Below, piece after piece: positions 41,254-62,378 of a stretch of 64,000 nucleotides of DNA (position 1 is the first letter of the stretch; the number at the start of each line of letters is the position of its first letter). Made by a program: the position numbers and the translations under genes. Source of the DNA: Pseudobutyrivibrio ruminis AD2017 (GTDB lineage Bacteria; Bacillota; Clostridia; Lachnospirales; Lachnospiraceae); the NCBI RefSeq assembly GCF_000424305.1, contig NZ_AUJQ01000004.1, positions 62,001-126,000 on the forward strand. Reading direction: 5' to 3'. The notes under the pieces were generated by a model. The model saw nothing but the letters and a program-made list of their open reading frames with translations. It was not told the DNA's origin and made no database searches.

Positions 41254-42435
41254 TTATTCTGCTACAGCTTCAGTCTCAACAACTTCTGTTTCTTCTGTCT
41301 CTGTTTCTACAGATTCTGTTTCAACAGACTCTTCTACTGTTTCAGCTTCAACTACTTCAGCATCAGCTTCAATTACTTCAGGAACTTCTGTTTCAACAGG
41401 AGCAATTTCAGTTACCATAGCAAATGTTGTAAACTGATTTAAAGCATCCTCTGACATGTATCCATCAGCAACTGCCTGCTTAGCTAAGTCATAGCACTCA
41501 GCTGGTGTCTTCTTAGGAGCGATTGATGATCTAACTACTGATGTTGTTCCATAGAATGATGTATAGAATGATGTAGTAGCGAAGTTTAATGTAAGCATTC
41601 TGCTACCTGTTTCTACGCCTAAAACACTTCCTCTCTTCTCACCAGCGCAATCGTAGTTGCCCCAAACGTCTTCACGTAAGTAGCTATCGCAGTGAGCAGC
41701 AGATGAATCTCCGTTGTAACCACCATCTTCATGGTTAACACCTGCGTACTGCCATACAATATTAAGCACTGAAGAAATGCTGTAGAATGTGTTCTTATCA
41801 CTGCTATCACCAAGTCTCTTTACCATGCCTTCACGACTAAAGCCCTTGATAAGAGGTGAACCAAATGTAACTGTGTTAAGTACTTCATAATTGTCCTTGA
41901 TGTACTTATCAGCAGCAACCTGCTGCGCAACCATTCCACCAAGGCTGTGACCGGCAAGAATAATGTTGCTGCCTGCAGGAATTCTATCGATAATAGCATT
42001 CTTTACATTTAATACGTATTCATTACTTAATTCAAAACCTGCCTGAAGGTCTTCCTTAACAGTTGTAGTCTGATTTTCAACAATTGTCTCTGTTCCTGAA
42101 AGTGCAACTACGTATACTTCCTTGTCCTCAGCGCCCCAATAAGTATTATAAGTCATTCTACCTTCTGTGATAGAAATAGGACCAGCTGACTGATAATCTG
42201 CATAGCCAACCTTTGTAAGTGTTGCCATCTGAGCAGCATTCTCAATATTTACAGTCTCACCATTCTGGATTTTATAAACCATATCCATGATCTTAAAATC
42301 TGTTTCTGTGTGAAGAACATAATTTGTATCTCCACCTGCTGGAAGAATTGAACCAGCCTCTGCAACCATTGGATTAACCAAAATAGTAGTAGCCACAAGA
42401 GCAGCAGCTAACATTCTAAAAACTCTTTTACTCAT
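41254..42435 (-). CDS. Secreted class 3 lipase-like alpha/beta hydrolase with acidic tail
   Basis: This 393-residue exported protein has a signal peptide (about 1-28) and a lipase core with the nucleophile elbow IILAGHSLGGMVAQQVAADKY, followed by VTFGSPLIKG, typical of class 3 lipases. The last 45 or so residues are a low-complexity Glu/Thr/Val tail with repeated ETE and VE units. That tail has no known anchor motif. The ATG at 42435 is preceded by GGAG about 13 nt upstream; the earlier start has no ribosome site. The substrate is unknown (lipid or acylated glycan). Confidence 0.82.
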   Translation of the reverse strand: MSKRVFRMLAAALVATTILVNPMVAEAGSILPAGGDTNYVLHTETDFKIMDMVYKIQNGETVNIENAAQMATLTKVGYADYQSAGPISITEGRMTYNTYWGAEDKEVYVVALSGTETIVENQTTTVKEDLQAGFELSNEYVLNVKNAIIDRIPAGSNIILAGHSLGGMVAQQVAADKYIKDNYEVLNTVTFGSPLIKGFSREGMVKRLGDSSDKNTFYSISSVLNIVWQYAGVNHEDGGYNGDSSAAHCDSYLREDVWGNYDCAGEKRGSVLGVETGSRMLTLNFATTSFYTSFYGTTSVVRSSIAPKKTPAECYDLAKQAVADGYMSEDALNQFTTFAMVTEIAPVETEVPEVIEADAEVVEAETVEESVETESVETETEETEVVETEAVAE

Positions 42436-52881: not shown

Positions 52882-53499
52882 TTAACAGCAGATTTCTTTA
52901 TATCTGGCAGAAACCTTGCTCCAATCCAGAATTTCCCAAAATGCCTTAATATAGTCAGGTCTTAAATTTTTATATTTAAGATAATATGCATGCTCCCACA
53001 CATCTAACGCAATCAGTGGAATCATGCCCTTGCCCTCGGAAATAGGATTGTCCTGATTTAAAGATGTAGACACCGCCAGCTTTCCTGATTTATCCGCTGA
53101 AAGCCAGGCCCAGCCAGAACCAAACTGTCCTGCTGCAGCTGCAGACATCTGCTCCTTCAAAGCATCCAGGCTACCAAAAGTTTTATCGATGGCTGCTGCC
53201 AATTCACCTGTAGGCTCCTTCGCAGGATTAGGGGAGAACATTTCAAAATACAGATTGTGATTGTAGTAACCACCACCCTGATTTCTTAAGCCTTTTCTCA
53301 AGGTTTCATCACTGACTTTATCTAAGCTTGCCAACAGCTCCCCTGCTGATAGATTAGCCATTCCCGCTTTTTCAGCCAGATCATTGAAATTCTTAGTATA
53401 GGTAGCGTGATGTTTGCCATGGTGTGTCTCCACTGTCTCCTTATCAATGTAAGGCTCCAGGGCATCTGTAGCATAAGGTAATTTAATCTGTTCGTACAT
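52882..53499 (-). CDS. sodA: Superoxide dismutase, Mn-type features
   Basis: This 205-residue Fe/Mn superoxide dismutase has the metal ligands in HHGKHHATY, NHNLYFEMF and DVWEHAYYLKY. The sequence GGGYYNH has Gly where Fe enzymes carry the active-site Gln, and LNQDNP carries that Gln in the C-terminal domain, the pattern of Mn enzymes. The ATG at 53499 is 9 nt from GGAG; another ATG two codons upstream is too close. The upstream region up to 53640 holds only a weak promoter candidate (TAGACA, 16 nt, TATCTA). Confidence 0.92.
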   Translation of the reverse strand: MYEQIKLPYATDALEPYIDKETVETHHGKHHATYTKNFNDLAEKAGMANLSAGELLASLDKVSDETLRKGLRNQGGGYYNHNLYFEMFSPNPAKEPTGELAAAIDKTFGSLDALKEQMSAAAAGQFGSGWAWLSADKSGKLAVSTSLNQDNPISEGKGMIPLIALDVWEHAYYLKYKNLRPDYIKAFWEILDWSKVSARYKEICC

Positions 53500-53630
53500 G
53501 TGCATACTCTCCTTTCAAATAAACCATTGATACTCAAACATTAAATGTTTTCACATTTTAGATACCGAAAGTACAGTCTATGTCTAATCCATGTTAAATC
53601 TATATAAAATATATTGGGCAATCAATTTTT

Positions 53631-53929
53631 TACTATCTGTTGTAGTTTTTTTCATTTTAGATAGTAGTCCTTTTGAACAACATTACTATCTATTTTAATT
53701 TTTCTTTCTCAGATAGTAGTCTGTTATTTGCTCACTACTATCTATATACATTTTTTCTTCTTCAGATAGTAACCGCCACAATCCTTCTTACTATCTAGAA
53801 GCTATTTTTTCCTACAGATAGTAGCCTTGTCATACAGCCCTACTACCTAGCAAGCTTTTTTATTCCTCAGATAGTAGACCTCTTCAAAATCACTACTATC
53901 TATTTAAAAAATCTTCTCTTAGATAGTAA
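53631..53929. repeat. Array of 12 alternating inverted 8-mers with 52/53-bp period
   Basis: AGATAGTA starts at 53659, 53711, 53764, 53816, 53869 and 53921. Its reverse complement TACTATCT starts at 53631, 53684, 53736, 53789, 53841 (as TACTACCT) and 53894. From each AGATAGTA to the next TACTATCT is always 25 bp; from TACTATCT to the next AGATAGTA is 27 or 28 bp in strict alternation. The 17-bp segments inside the pairs differ in sequence, while the 19-20-bp segments between pairs are pyrimidine-rich with a central T-tract (the last one is A-rich). The array fills the space between sod and the acyltransferase gene and supplies the last codons and stop of the latter. Confidence 0.95.
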
Positions 53930-55042
53930 AAAGGCTTCGATAGCCACATCCACCAGCAGTGGCAGGGCCACGCCGACGATGGTGTAAATAAGAAGCACGT
54001 ATTCTGGTGCGTCGAAGATTACTGGCCAGGAAGCAACCATGTACAACGGCTTGCCAACTGCCAGGCAGTAGCAAACTGAAACCAGCTTGAACGCAAGGAT
54101 GTGCATAAACAGGATGGACATGGTGTGCTTGCCGATGAAGGTAAGCCAGCCGCCTACAATATTATTTTCTAAATCCGATGCAAGAGATGCAAGCATTGCC
54201 ATACCAAGGAAGGTAGTGGCTATTAAAAATAGTGGATTTACGATGGCTGATTTGGAAAGCTCTAAGGTTCCGAAAGGAAGTAATGCAAGTAACAATGCAA
54301 ATGCCACTGGTGCTAAGCAGATCACTACCCACTTCTTACCAGACAATTTAGCCAAAAAGCCACCATCTACAAAAGCACGTGTAACCACGCCCATCAGATA
54401 ACAGCTGTACACTCCAAAGAACTGCAAGTGTCTGTCGGCAATAGGTGCCTCAGAAGCAAAGCCTATAGAAATAGCATAAGTCACTATCAAATTGCAGGCC
54501 ATCAAAGCCACAAGCACTAAAACTCTGGCCTTCTGGCCTAATCCTCTAATCACATACTCCACAAAACAATGAATAACGCAAACCAAAAACAGCACGATTA
54601 AAAACCAGCTGGCGCTGCCCATCTGTGGGATGTCCTTAAGAGTGAGCACATTATAAACATCCACTATCAGCTCCTTAATACCCTTGCGGTGCATCAGTGT
54701 CTGAGCCGCCTTTTGGATGAAGATAACATCCTCCTTGAAGGCTCCATTATCAGTGTAGAAATTCAGGCTGATAAACAGATTGTTAAGTATCGCATAAACG
54801 ATATTAAATCCCATATAAGGAAGCAACAATCTGCGAACGCGGGAAAAGAAATATCCCTCCGCCTGCTGCAGGCTGGCGCCATGTGCCTTATTAAAGCAAT
54901 ATCCACTTACAAAAATAAAAACGGGCATGTGAAATAAATAGATGAAGTCACGAGCCACACCAAAGGTGTGCCCGTAAACCATCAGTATTATCGCAATGCC
55001 CTTAATAATATCTATATTGTTATTTCTAGTCTTAGTATCCAT
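53900..55042 (-). CDS. Acyltransferase family 3 membrane protein
   Basis: This 380-residue integral membrane O-acyltransferase (PF01757) has about ten segments. It has the N-terminal IDIIKGIAIILMVYGHTFG, with the conserved His, and FHMPVFIFVSGYCFNK. It probably adds acetyl or another acyl group to a surface glycan. Its stop codon and last nine residues (LLSKRRFFK) lie inside the repeat array, so the 3' end may have been rewritten by the array. The start overlaps the NeuD stop as TAATG. Confidence 0.9.
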   Translation of the reverse strand: MDTKTRNNNIDIIKGIAIILMVYGHTFGVARDFIYLFHMPVFIFVSGYCFNKAHGASLQQAEGYFFSRVRRLLLPYMGFNIVYAILNNLFISLNFYTDNGAFKEDVIFIQKAAQTLMHRKGIKELIVDVYNVLTLKDIPQMGSASWFLIVLFLVCVIHCFVEYVIRGLGQKARVLVLVALMACNLIVTYAISIGFASEAPIADRHLQFFGVYSCYLMGVVTRAFVDGGFLAKLSGKKWVVICLAPVAFALLLALLPFGTLELSKSAIVNPLFLIATTFLGMAMLASLASDLENNIVGGWLTFIGKHTMSILFMHILAFKLVSVCYCLAVGKPLYMVASWPVIFDAPEYVLLIYTIVGVALPLLVDVAIEAFLLSKRRFFK

Positions 55043-61160: not shown

Positions 61161-62378
61161 TACTTTTTCGAAATATGTATCTGGTCTGTCCTGCTCCAGG
61201 AGTTCGTTGGCCCACATGAATGTTATTAGATCTTCACTATTCGATAGATTAACAATATTATGTGCATAACCGGGCAACATGTGAACTGCCTGGATTTTCT
61301 CACCACTTACTTCGTATTCTATCATTGGAAATGGCTGGCCATTTTCATCTACACCTACGCGGCGCTGTTGGATGAGACCGTGGCCTGATACAACGATAAA
61401 GAATTCCCATTTAGTATGGTGCCAATGCTGTCCCTTTGTGATACCTGGCTTACTGATATTTACTGAAAACTGGCCGTGGTCTGCTGTCTTAAGAAGCTCT
61501 GTAAATGAACCACGGTTGTCTACGTTCATCTTTAAATCAAAGCATGCCTTATCCTTTGGAAGGTAGCTAAGATATGTGCTGTATAGCTTTTTAGCAAAGC
61601 TGCCATTTGGGATGGCTGGCATCATAAGTGTGGAAGGCTCGGCTACAAAGCTATCAAGAAGCTCTACTATTTCGCCTAATGTCACACGATGAGAAACAGG
61701 AACATAACAATAGCGTCCTGCTGTATCAGGTATCACCTGACCATCCTCATCATAATCACATCTGTGCTCATCGCCACGAAGGGCGTTTATCATTTCGTTA
61801 ACTAAATCATCTATGTATACAAGCTCAAGCTCTGTAGTTGGATCATTAACTGTAATTTCAAGACCGTTAGCCTTGTTGTTGCAGAATGTAGCAACAGCTG
61901 AGTTGTAGTTAGGACGGCACCATTTACCAAAGAGATTTGGGAAACGGTAAACTAATACCTTAGAGCCTGTCTCCTGTCCATATTTAAAAATAAGTTCCTC
62001 ACCAGCAAGCTTGCTTTTGCCGTAATCGCTACCTGCATATCTGCCTAAAAGTGTAGCCTGGATAGATGATGAAATCATTACAGGACATGTGTTGCCATGC
62101 TTTTTAAGTGTGTCTAAAAGTGTGCTGGCAAACCCAAAATTTCCTTCCATGAATTCAGCTGTATCTTTAGGACGATTAACACCTGCAAGATTAAATACGA
62201 AATCGCAATCGCTACAGTATTTATCAAGCTCCTCTAAGGTGGAAGCTCTGTCGTATTCGTAGATAACAATCTCTTCGTCAAGGCTATGGAACTTGTCCCT
62301 GCCATCGGCGGCACATTTGAGTGTCTCTACTAAATTTTTACCCACAAATCCGGCTGCGCCAGTAACTAGTATCTTCAT
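61158..62378 (-). CDS. capF: Bifunctional CapF-like reductase/epimerase of UDP-FucNAc synthesis
   Basis: This 406-residue protein has an N-terminal SDR domain (MKILVTGAAGFVGKNLVETL, the GxxGxxG nucleotide-binding motif; FNLAGVNRP) and a C-terminal cupin domain (about 285-406) with GQHWHHTKWEFFIVVSGHG, the metal-binding His cluster. CapF of Staphylococcus aureus has the same architecture and acts between CapE and CapG. It is coupled to capE through a TAATG overlap. Confidence 0.93.
   Translation of the reverse strand: MKILVTGAAGFVGKNLVETLKCAADGRDKFHSLDEEIVIYEYDRASTLEELDKYCSDCDFVFNLAGVNRPKDTAEFMEGNFGFASTLLDTLKKHGNTCPVMISSSIQATLLGRYAGSDYGKSKLAGEELIFKYGQETGSKVLVYRFPNLFGKWCRPNYNSAVATFCNNKANGLEITVNDPTTELELVYIDDLVNEMINALRGDEHRCDYDEDGQVIPDTAGRYCYVPVSHRVTLGEIVELLDSFVAEPSTLMMPAIPNGSFAKKLYSTYLSYLPKDKACFDLKMNVDNRGSFTELLKTADHGQFSVNISKPGITKGQHWHHTKWEFFIVVSGHGLIQQRRVGVDENGQPFPMIEYEVSGEKIQAVHMLPGYAHNIVNLSNSEDLITFMWANELLEQDRPDTYFEKV

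Follow-up and report, generated by a model that had tools for sequence, protein, structure and literature searches.

Helically phased arrays of inverted 8-bp words and an associated family of nuclease-like genes in Pseudobutyrivibrio

In Pseudobutyrivibrio ruminis AD2017 a regular array of short inverted words stands upstream of a superoxide dismutase-like (sod) gene, and the last codons of an acyltransferase-like open reading frame (ORF) run into its far end (Table 1). The DNA analysed, here called the window, is a stretch of 64,000 nucleotides (positions 62,001 to 126,000 of contig NZ_AUJQ01000004.1, assembly GCF_000424305.1). Orthologs of the acyltransferase-like ORF match it only up to residue 369-372. 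The original prediction had described twelve 8-mers in alternating direction, and a recount bears this out: eleven are exact copies of AGATAGTA or TACTATCT, and the twelfth, at 53841, is the R/Y variant TACTACCT. The array ends at 53928 and not, as had been given, at 53929. The distances reported for this copy are confirmed, with starts 25 bp apart from AGATAGTA to TACTATCT and 28, 27, 28, 27, 28 and 27 bp apart from TACTATCT to AGATAGTA, which makes a period of 52/53 bp. Exact pairs separated by 14-20 nucleotides occur four times in the window, and none of 100 dinucleotide-shuffled windows gave any; Tandem Repeats Finder reported the array in part only (53789-53902). Elsewhere the window holds short tandem repeats of 15 and 21 bp (41262-41381) and, on the minus strand, two ordinary RNA elements, a Lysine riboswitch (RF00168, 37571-37757) and an S10-Clostridia leader (RF03136, 6497-6583).

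Table 1. Coordinates of the array, its parts and its flanking genes in the window
Feature	Position	Strand	Remarks
Whole array, six units	53631..53928	-	A-tract strand is the minus strand, the coding strand of both flanking genes
Unit 1	53631..53666	-	36 bp, TACTATCT-N20-AGATAGTA
Unit 2	53684..53718	-	35 bp
Unit 3	53736..53771	-	36 bp
Unit 4	53789..53823	-	35 bp
Unit 5	53841..53876	-	36 bp; left half-site is the R/Y variant TACTACCT
Unit 6	53894..53928	-	35 bp; contains the end and stop codon of the acyltransferase ORF
Five 17-bp links	53667-53683, 53719-53735, 53772-53788, 53824-53840, 53877-53893		
Acyltransferase-like ORF	53900..55042	-	380 aa; last codons within the array; name from translation
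Superoxide dismutase-like gene	52882..53505	-	downstream of the array; name from the original prediction and the translation

The first word of the window array is TACTATCT and its last is AGATAGTA, and the same start and end words are found in 58 of the 62 arrays described below, 40 times exactly and 18 times with at most two mismatches in one or both end words. Because arrays open and close in this way, the repeat unit is TACTATCT-N19/20-AGATAGTA (in general form TACTAYCT-N19/20-AGRTAGTA), 35-36 bp long with an A/T tract in its middle, and the 17-mer is a link. The window array is made of six such units joined by links of fixed length. The 25-bp distance on which the original pairing was based stands, whereas the pair that it defines is not the unit, its 17-mer being the link and the A/T tract lying inside the unit proper.

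The window copy is one of many. The exact pair occurs 25 times in the 2.9-Mb AD2017 genome and, with at most one mismatch, 42 times against none for the reversed control pattern, and these pairs are spread over at least about a dozen places. Pairs with at most one mismatch were found in 12 of 41 genomes (AD2017 included), 11 of which belong to the genus; the twelfth (G037), from another family of the order Lachnospirales, in which Pseudobutyrivibrio is placed, has two such pairs against one in the control. A three-word pattern run against 84,980 species genomes, a scan that may omit records of or near AD2017, returned 49 loci in nine genomes, every record being titled Pseudobutyrivibrio. Neither the viral contigs searched with the array pattern nor the plasmid DNA searched for the array gave a match.

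The window, ten further stretches of its own genome and the 49 loci together hold 62 arrays, all different in sequence, from the AD2017 genome and nine Pseudobutyrivibrio genomes; they fall into 35 locus groups, so that orthologs are counted more than once. Exact neighbours lie 27 bp (n=222) or 28 bp (n=58) apart within units and 25 bp (n=229), 24 bp (n=4) or 14-15 bp (n=13) apart over links, and other distances are rare or due to missed words. Six units are present in 23 arrays, five in 12, seven in 11, four in 10 and eight in 4, with extremes of ten units in one array and of two in another, which runs into a contig end. Strict 52/53 alternation is peculiar to the window copy, other arrays being all-52, all-53 or mixed. 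The expectation that spacing and half-sites are conserved holds across all 62 arrays, and the period, whose loss with changing copy number had been named as grounds for rejection, is kept from 2 to 10 units (27/28 and 25 bp) except in 13 exact links, which fall short by 10-11 bp. That these short links are independent one-turn deletions was considered and dropped: they are counted as few events because most stem from one dispersed repeat and one small array family. Arrays of AGGTAGTA, at L050, L056, L062, L064, L068 and L069, mostly have one short 6-bp link and are embedded in a dispersed repeat whose copies, in P. xylanivorans and in one case in P. ruminis CF1b, resemble each other over ~160-560 bp.

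Each inverted pair could form a stem of 8-10 bp, and the A-strand is co-oriented with genes, features that would suit an RNA hairpin element, a terminator series or another transcript-level structure, and a hairpin per pair had indeed been suggested. However, the variable Y/R positions of paired half-sites covary no more than in within-array shuffles. Among 288 distinct units 187 are matched against 184.9 expected (P 0.39), among 230 distinct links 155 against 150.7 (P 0.18), and C-A mismatches in the 288 units number 45 against 46.1 expected from the shuffles. Two positions within one half-site are, on the other hand, mutually dependent (P 0.002), as would be expected if one protomer reads each half-site. 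No Rfam family matched the array at gathering thresholds, and the spacing of the words is quantised in helical turns (see below). Because its paired half-sites do not covary, the array is best regarded as a DNA site and not as an RNA hairpin; the RNA-structure reading is largely refuted and must be considered highly improbable.

As judged from ORF-based gene calls, which define the neighbours of each array, the arrays are essentially intergenic and lie between many unrelated genes, the few overlaps with ORFs being gene ends or doubtful small ORFs. The gene preceding the array is on the A-strand in 24 of 30 locus groups, and a divergent (promoter) setting is found in 2 of the 27 with both flanks known; relative to codirectional neighbours the A-strand is co-oriented in 15 locus groups and opposed in 3. 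The end of the window array 125 bp upstream of the sod start would fit the cooperative operator for sod that was among the functions first proposed. Of 26 genomes searched for the sod/acyltransferase junction, four relatives have it, but the array is absent in two (G014 and G006) and a single half-site is kept in the other two (G041 and G018). Since the same junction is array-less in two relatives and has one half-site in two, the array is no conserved sod operator; as a conserved function this was ruled out, and the chance that the array serves sod in this way is practically negligible. The window array is probably one dispersed copy, a special task for sod being unlikely. The array-less (2/4) and remnant (2/4) junctions are compatible with loss as well as with gain, so the absence of the array in relatives could reflect loss instead of gain; no target duplication was identified and no fresh transposition was seen.

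A candidate partner gene lies elsewhere in the AD2017 genome (L013), where a gene for a 262-aa protein (G000:C1:75114-75899) follows a comEC-like gene (named from its translation) and sits between two seven-unit arrays. It is likely to be the cognate gene for AGATAGTA in this strain. The protein, whose family is mostly 260-290 aa long, ends in a PD-(D/E)XK nuclease domain and matched no NCBIfam model and no Pfam model above its curated cut-off. E160, D191, E206 and H207 are present in 73 of 73 aligned sequences (68 distinct genes, five seen twice), and conserved acidic residues in a restriction-enzyme-like core place the protein in the PD-(D/E)XK superfamily, with catalytic roles that are predicted by analogy. 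The AlphaFold model, for which five sequences were used, has a mean pLDDT of 77 and a pTM of 0.49 (the other four models were poor, at 52-58); it predicts an N-terminal helix, then a three-stranded sheet and a long helix, ahead of the nuclease core. Foldseek with this model gave no match at E<=0.001, the best being to the Bax1 and MunI nucleases (E 0.01-0.12) with R2 endonuclease proteins weaker, and searches of solved structures returned no credible relative. Among the PHROGs, the nuclease half weakly matches resolvase/endonuclease and unknown families (~1e-4).

The protein family is multi-copy, with up to 11 matches in each of 25 of 26 genus genomes. In a sample of the order it was found in 44 of 295 genomes and 17 of 129 genera, and in a sample of the phylum 7 of 398 genomes had a match, the two outside Lachnospiraceae in the nuclease half only. 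Some copies are fragmented or interrupted by stop codons (G009 C1:1985564-1986332 and, at L087, C1:887916-888680), so copies decay. With an identity cut-off of at least 60%, which was picked after the data were seen, the gene is present in 6 of 10 genomes with at least five array pairs and in 0 of 15 without (P 0.001). Of the four array-bearing genomes without such a gene, G005 and G022 have relatives of 47-48% identity with TACTACCT arrays, and the best relatives found in G006 and G023 are 40% and 44% identical; in G017 a relative of 54% identity has no array. Arrays would then outlive or do without the gene, or the drafts are incomplete.

The association of arrays with family genes extends to other words. 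Seventy family loci, comprising those returned by family searches and 20 chosen places, with further listed members left out, were scanned with a finder that assumes no word but an alternation of 23-29 bp. Upstream chains of at least four words were found at 44/70 loci and of at least five at 35/70; the downstream figure is 6/70. With wrong spacings, chains of at least five words were found at 2 loci (centre 20 bp), 4 loci (36 bp) and 0 loci (46 bp), while a control centred on 31 bp, which overlaps the true 28-29 bp distance, gave 24/70 for at least four words and 7/70 for at least five; in shuffled background a chain of at least four appeared at 2/46 loci. A second finder, which assumes no period, detected upstream word families at 54 of 75 family loci; among 320 control windows from the AD2017 genome it reported 3, one of them a dispersed CACTTAA array. 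Twenty-one of the 75 loci have no word family by this finder, and for some of them little upstream DNA was available (under 400 bp at 5/70 loci). Five further family loci, in G042, gave 0/5 arrays with the 23-29 bp finder, and at two of these the period-free one reports arrays with a period of 63 or 74 bp; mismatch-rich chains at L016 and L038 were excluded from the array count. Of 22 distinct genes with at least ten words, 18 have their upstream array at a distance of 27-150 bp from the point where the protein match begins. The words found include TACTAYCT, TACTGCCT, TACAGTG, TACCACTAG, ACCACTGG, ATGCATCCC, CACTTAA, TGTATGGG, GACACGAA, GACACGCA, TTACGTCT and TACGGACT, and on sequence grounds the subfamilies each have words of their own. 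Exact pairs of CACTGTA and CTAGTGGTA number three and two in the AD2017 genome; the two CTAGTGGTA pairs and one of the three CACTGTA pairs adjoin their own gene, so not every paralog is seen with spread arrays.

Despite their different words, these arrays share one geometry. Same-direction spacings cluster at 50-54, 61-65, 71-76, 93-96 and 103-106 bp. Of the 75 spacings in the range 56-100 bp, which come from 29 genes, every one deviates by no more than a quarter turn from a whole multiple of 10.5 bp, where half would do so by chance; over 30-115 bp, 346 of 349 are in phase and 3 are out, most being the 52/53 period itself. The formal phasing P per gene, 4e-9, is too small because some genes are orthologs. 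Even so, array periods are 63-64 bp upstream of the family genes at L089, L128 and L169, and 74 bp at L104, L133 and L175. The helical phasing put forward in the original prediction is thus upheld, with whole-turn spacings of ~52, 63 and 74 bp.

Word and protein also vary together. In 31 array-bearing genes out of 40, with near-identical proteins removed though the genes remain related, word similarity follows N-terminal identity once C-terminal identity is controlled for (partial r 0.32, a value that 0 of 2000 permutations attained), and C-terminal identity with the N-terminal half fixed gives a partial r of 0.05 (P 0.19). This bears on the idea that the arrays belong to another DNA-organising protein, the nuclease gene merely accompanying them. 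Chromosome-organising arrays are known in principle, and a close gene was not found in some array-bearing genomes; yet it is with the N-terminal half of the nuclease-family protein that the words change, subfamily by subfamily, and an organiser of a different kind is quite improbable.

A protein that does no more than control its own gene through the upstream array, with the dispersed arrays as its regulon and nothing mobile, would account for arrays being commoner upstream than downstream of family genes, for their distance from the start of the protein match (27-150 bp in 18/22) and for the 15 to 3 bias of the A-strand. It accords poorly, however, with dispersed arrays that adjoin unrelated genes, with the scarcity of divergent settings (2/27) and the gene that commonly precedes the array on the A-strand (24/30), and with the existence of an array-less sod/acyltransferase junction, and an invariant nuclease site would be superfluous for an operator. 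Such a purely regulatory role is therefore unlikely.

Similar array copies at different places in a genome are what is expected of a mobile element, and several were found. The array at L012:5257 and those at L012:7697, L014 and L059 have linking sequence that is 74-80% alike over 197 bp, and one array pair is 96% alike over 274 bp. Among the matches listed, L012 and L014 arrays are 78-96% alike in aligned stretches, and in some pairs the likeness breaks off near the array ends; between arrays at different loci it extends from about -12 to +3 bp relative to these ends. In the MAG RUG12053 (L052) the partner gene is missing from the comEC locus and a single array stands there, the outcome expected if two flanking arrays had recombined. 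Not all arrays of other words accompany a family gene: at L162, L036, L045 and L048 none was detected at E 1e-4 in the stretches of 8-20 kb that contain the array. At L045 (5266-5427 and 5472-5870) and L048 (782-1022 and 1041-1231), arrays of two words directly adjoin each other, as if they shared preferred landing sites.

The nuclease domain raises the alternative of defence, in which the enzyme would attack foreign DNA and the arrays would retain, sequester or tag that DNA on the chromosome. The C-terminus of the 262-aa protein matches the PADLOC candidate PDC-S68 (E 1e-24 to 5e-25), and genomes carry several paralogs with differing words. The match is, however, confined to the last ~150 residues and to the end of a long profile; in the best of three PDC-S68 profiles, residues 111-260 align with positions 1074-1218 of 1221. 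The viral contigs searched with the protein contain no relative, and distant relatives are found in three 'Bacteriophage sp.' records. A defence role is thus distinctly unlikely. One record of that name, the 4.2-kb, UNVERIFIED MT839528.1 (L140), encodes a distant family member with no upstream array found. Five plasmid records match the protein over 25-44% of the query, in its nuclease half; the annotation is AAA family ATPase in four, and the fifth has none. A phage origin was dropped, with 0 viral contigs for either the array pattern or the protein, as was a plasmid origin, plasmid DNA having no match to the array and the protein matches being confined to the nuclease half.

Collectively, these results favour, with a probability of about 0.7, a reading in which the arrays would be multi-copy binding sites of cognate nuclease-family proteins, dispersed as non-autonomous elements; we infer both the binding and the mobilisation. 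The N-terminal domain would read the 8-bp word, as its correlation with the word suggests. Protomers would dock on the alternating half-sites, with same-direction sites on one face of the helix and inverted sites between them; the spacings would put same-direction sites five turns apart in the window array and six or seven turns apart in other subfamilies, and the outcome would be one long cooperative complex over several units. At its own gene the upstream position would place this complex where control of expression is possible. In the final and least certain step, the conserved nuclease centre may cleave or nick DNA and so start new copies of the array at other sites, from which dispersed, lineage-varying arrays would result; spread into intergenic sites would most likely proceed through such nuclease-initiated copying. 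A bolder version, which is offered tentatively, is that of a selfish genetic pair in which protomers of a word-specific nuclease line up on one face of its phased array, the array is copied intergenically via nuclease-induced repair, and paralogs that have diverged to many independent words act as several orthogonal systems within one genome.

No description of these arrays or of the nuclease-family protein was found in the open-licence literature, and the protein family is without a name in the libraries searched. That its genes mostly lie next to arrays of their own words points to an undescribed family of array-paired proteins. Its significance would lie in an unnamed multi-copy gene family of Lachnospirales tied to a DNA code, with more than ten words, one architecture and spacing in helical turns. 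Such a family may offer a naturally occurring collection of candidate protein-word pairs for learning rules of DNA recognition, and it may explain intergenic repeats in other genomes of the order.

Among known systems, CRISPR has a similarly regular repeat-spacer appearance, but its near-identical direct repeats of more than ~20 bp are absent here, where only half-sites and the A-tract are kept and half-sites are inverted within the unit; the original prediction had rightly set the array apart from it. Iterons and other phased operator arrays likewise have several binding sites in helical register, whereas the sites described here alternate in direction, their words vary between paralogs, and the arrays are dispersed beside unrelated genes. 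With PDC-S68 the family has in common a homologous C-terminal nuclease-like domain, but the preceding ~1,070 profile positions are unmatched and the family is array-associated. The closest parallel is with the REP/BIME/REPIN-RAYT systems, which combine dispersed alternating intergenic repeats with a cognate, co-evolving gene, can have several gene/repeat pairs per genome, and have repeats that are proposed to be non-autonomous elements (PMC2817692; PMC3116915). The window-type arrays are similarly dispersed, intergenic, alternating and variable between relatives, with a gene beside its own word (at 44/70 or 54/75 loci, depending on the finder) and a word that tracks the N-terminal half in 31 genes. 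The partner is, however, PD-(D/E)XK-like and not a Y1 transposase, the half-sites lack stem covariation, the words are spaced in whole helical turns, and arrays are of 4-8 units in 60 of 62 cases and mostly upstream of the gene. A PF01797 (Y1/HUH) search gave 0 matches in the whole AD2017 genome and was positive in 5 of 14 control genomes; because the genome has no PF01797 match, membership of REP/RAYT was rejected. The best reading, by analogy, is that the array/nuclease pair would work like REP/RAYT without its transposase, a possible second route to REP-like dispersed repeats.
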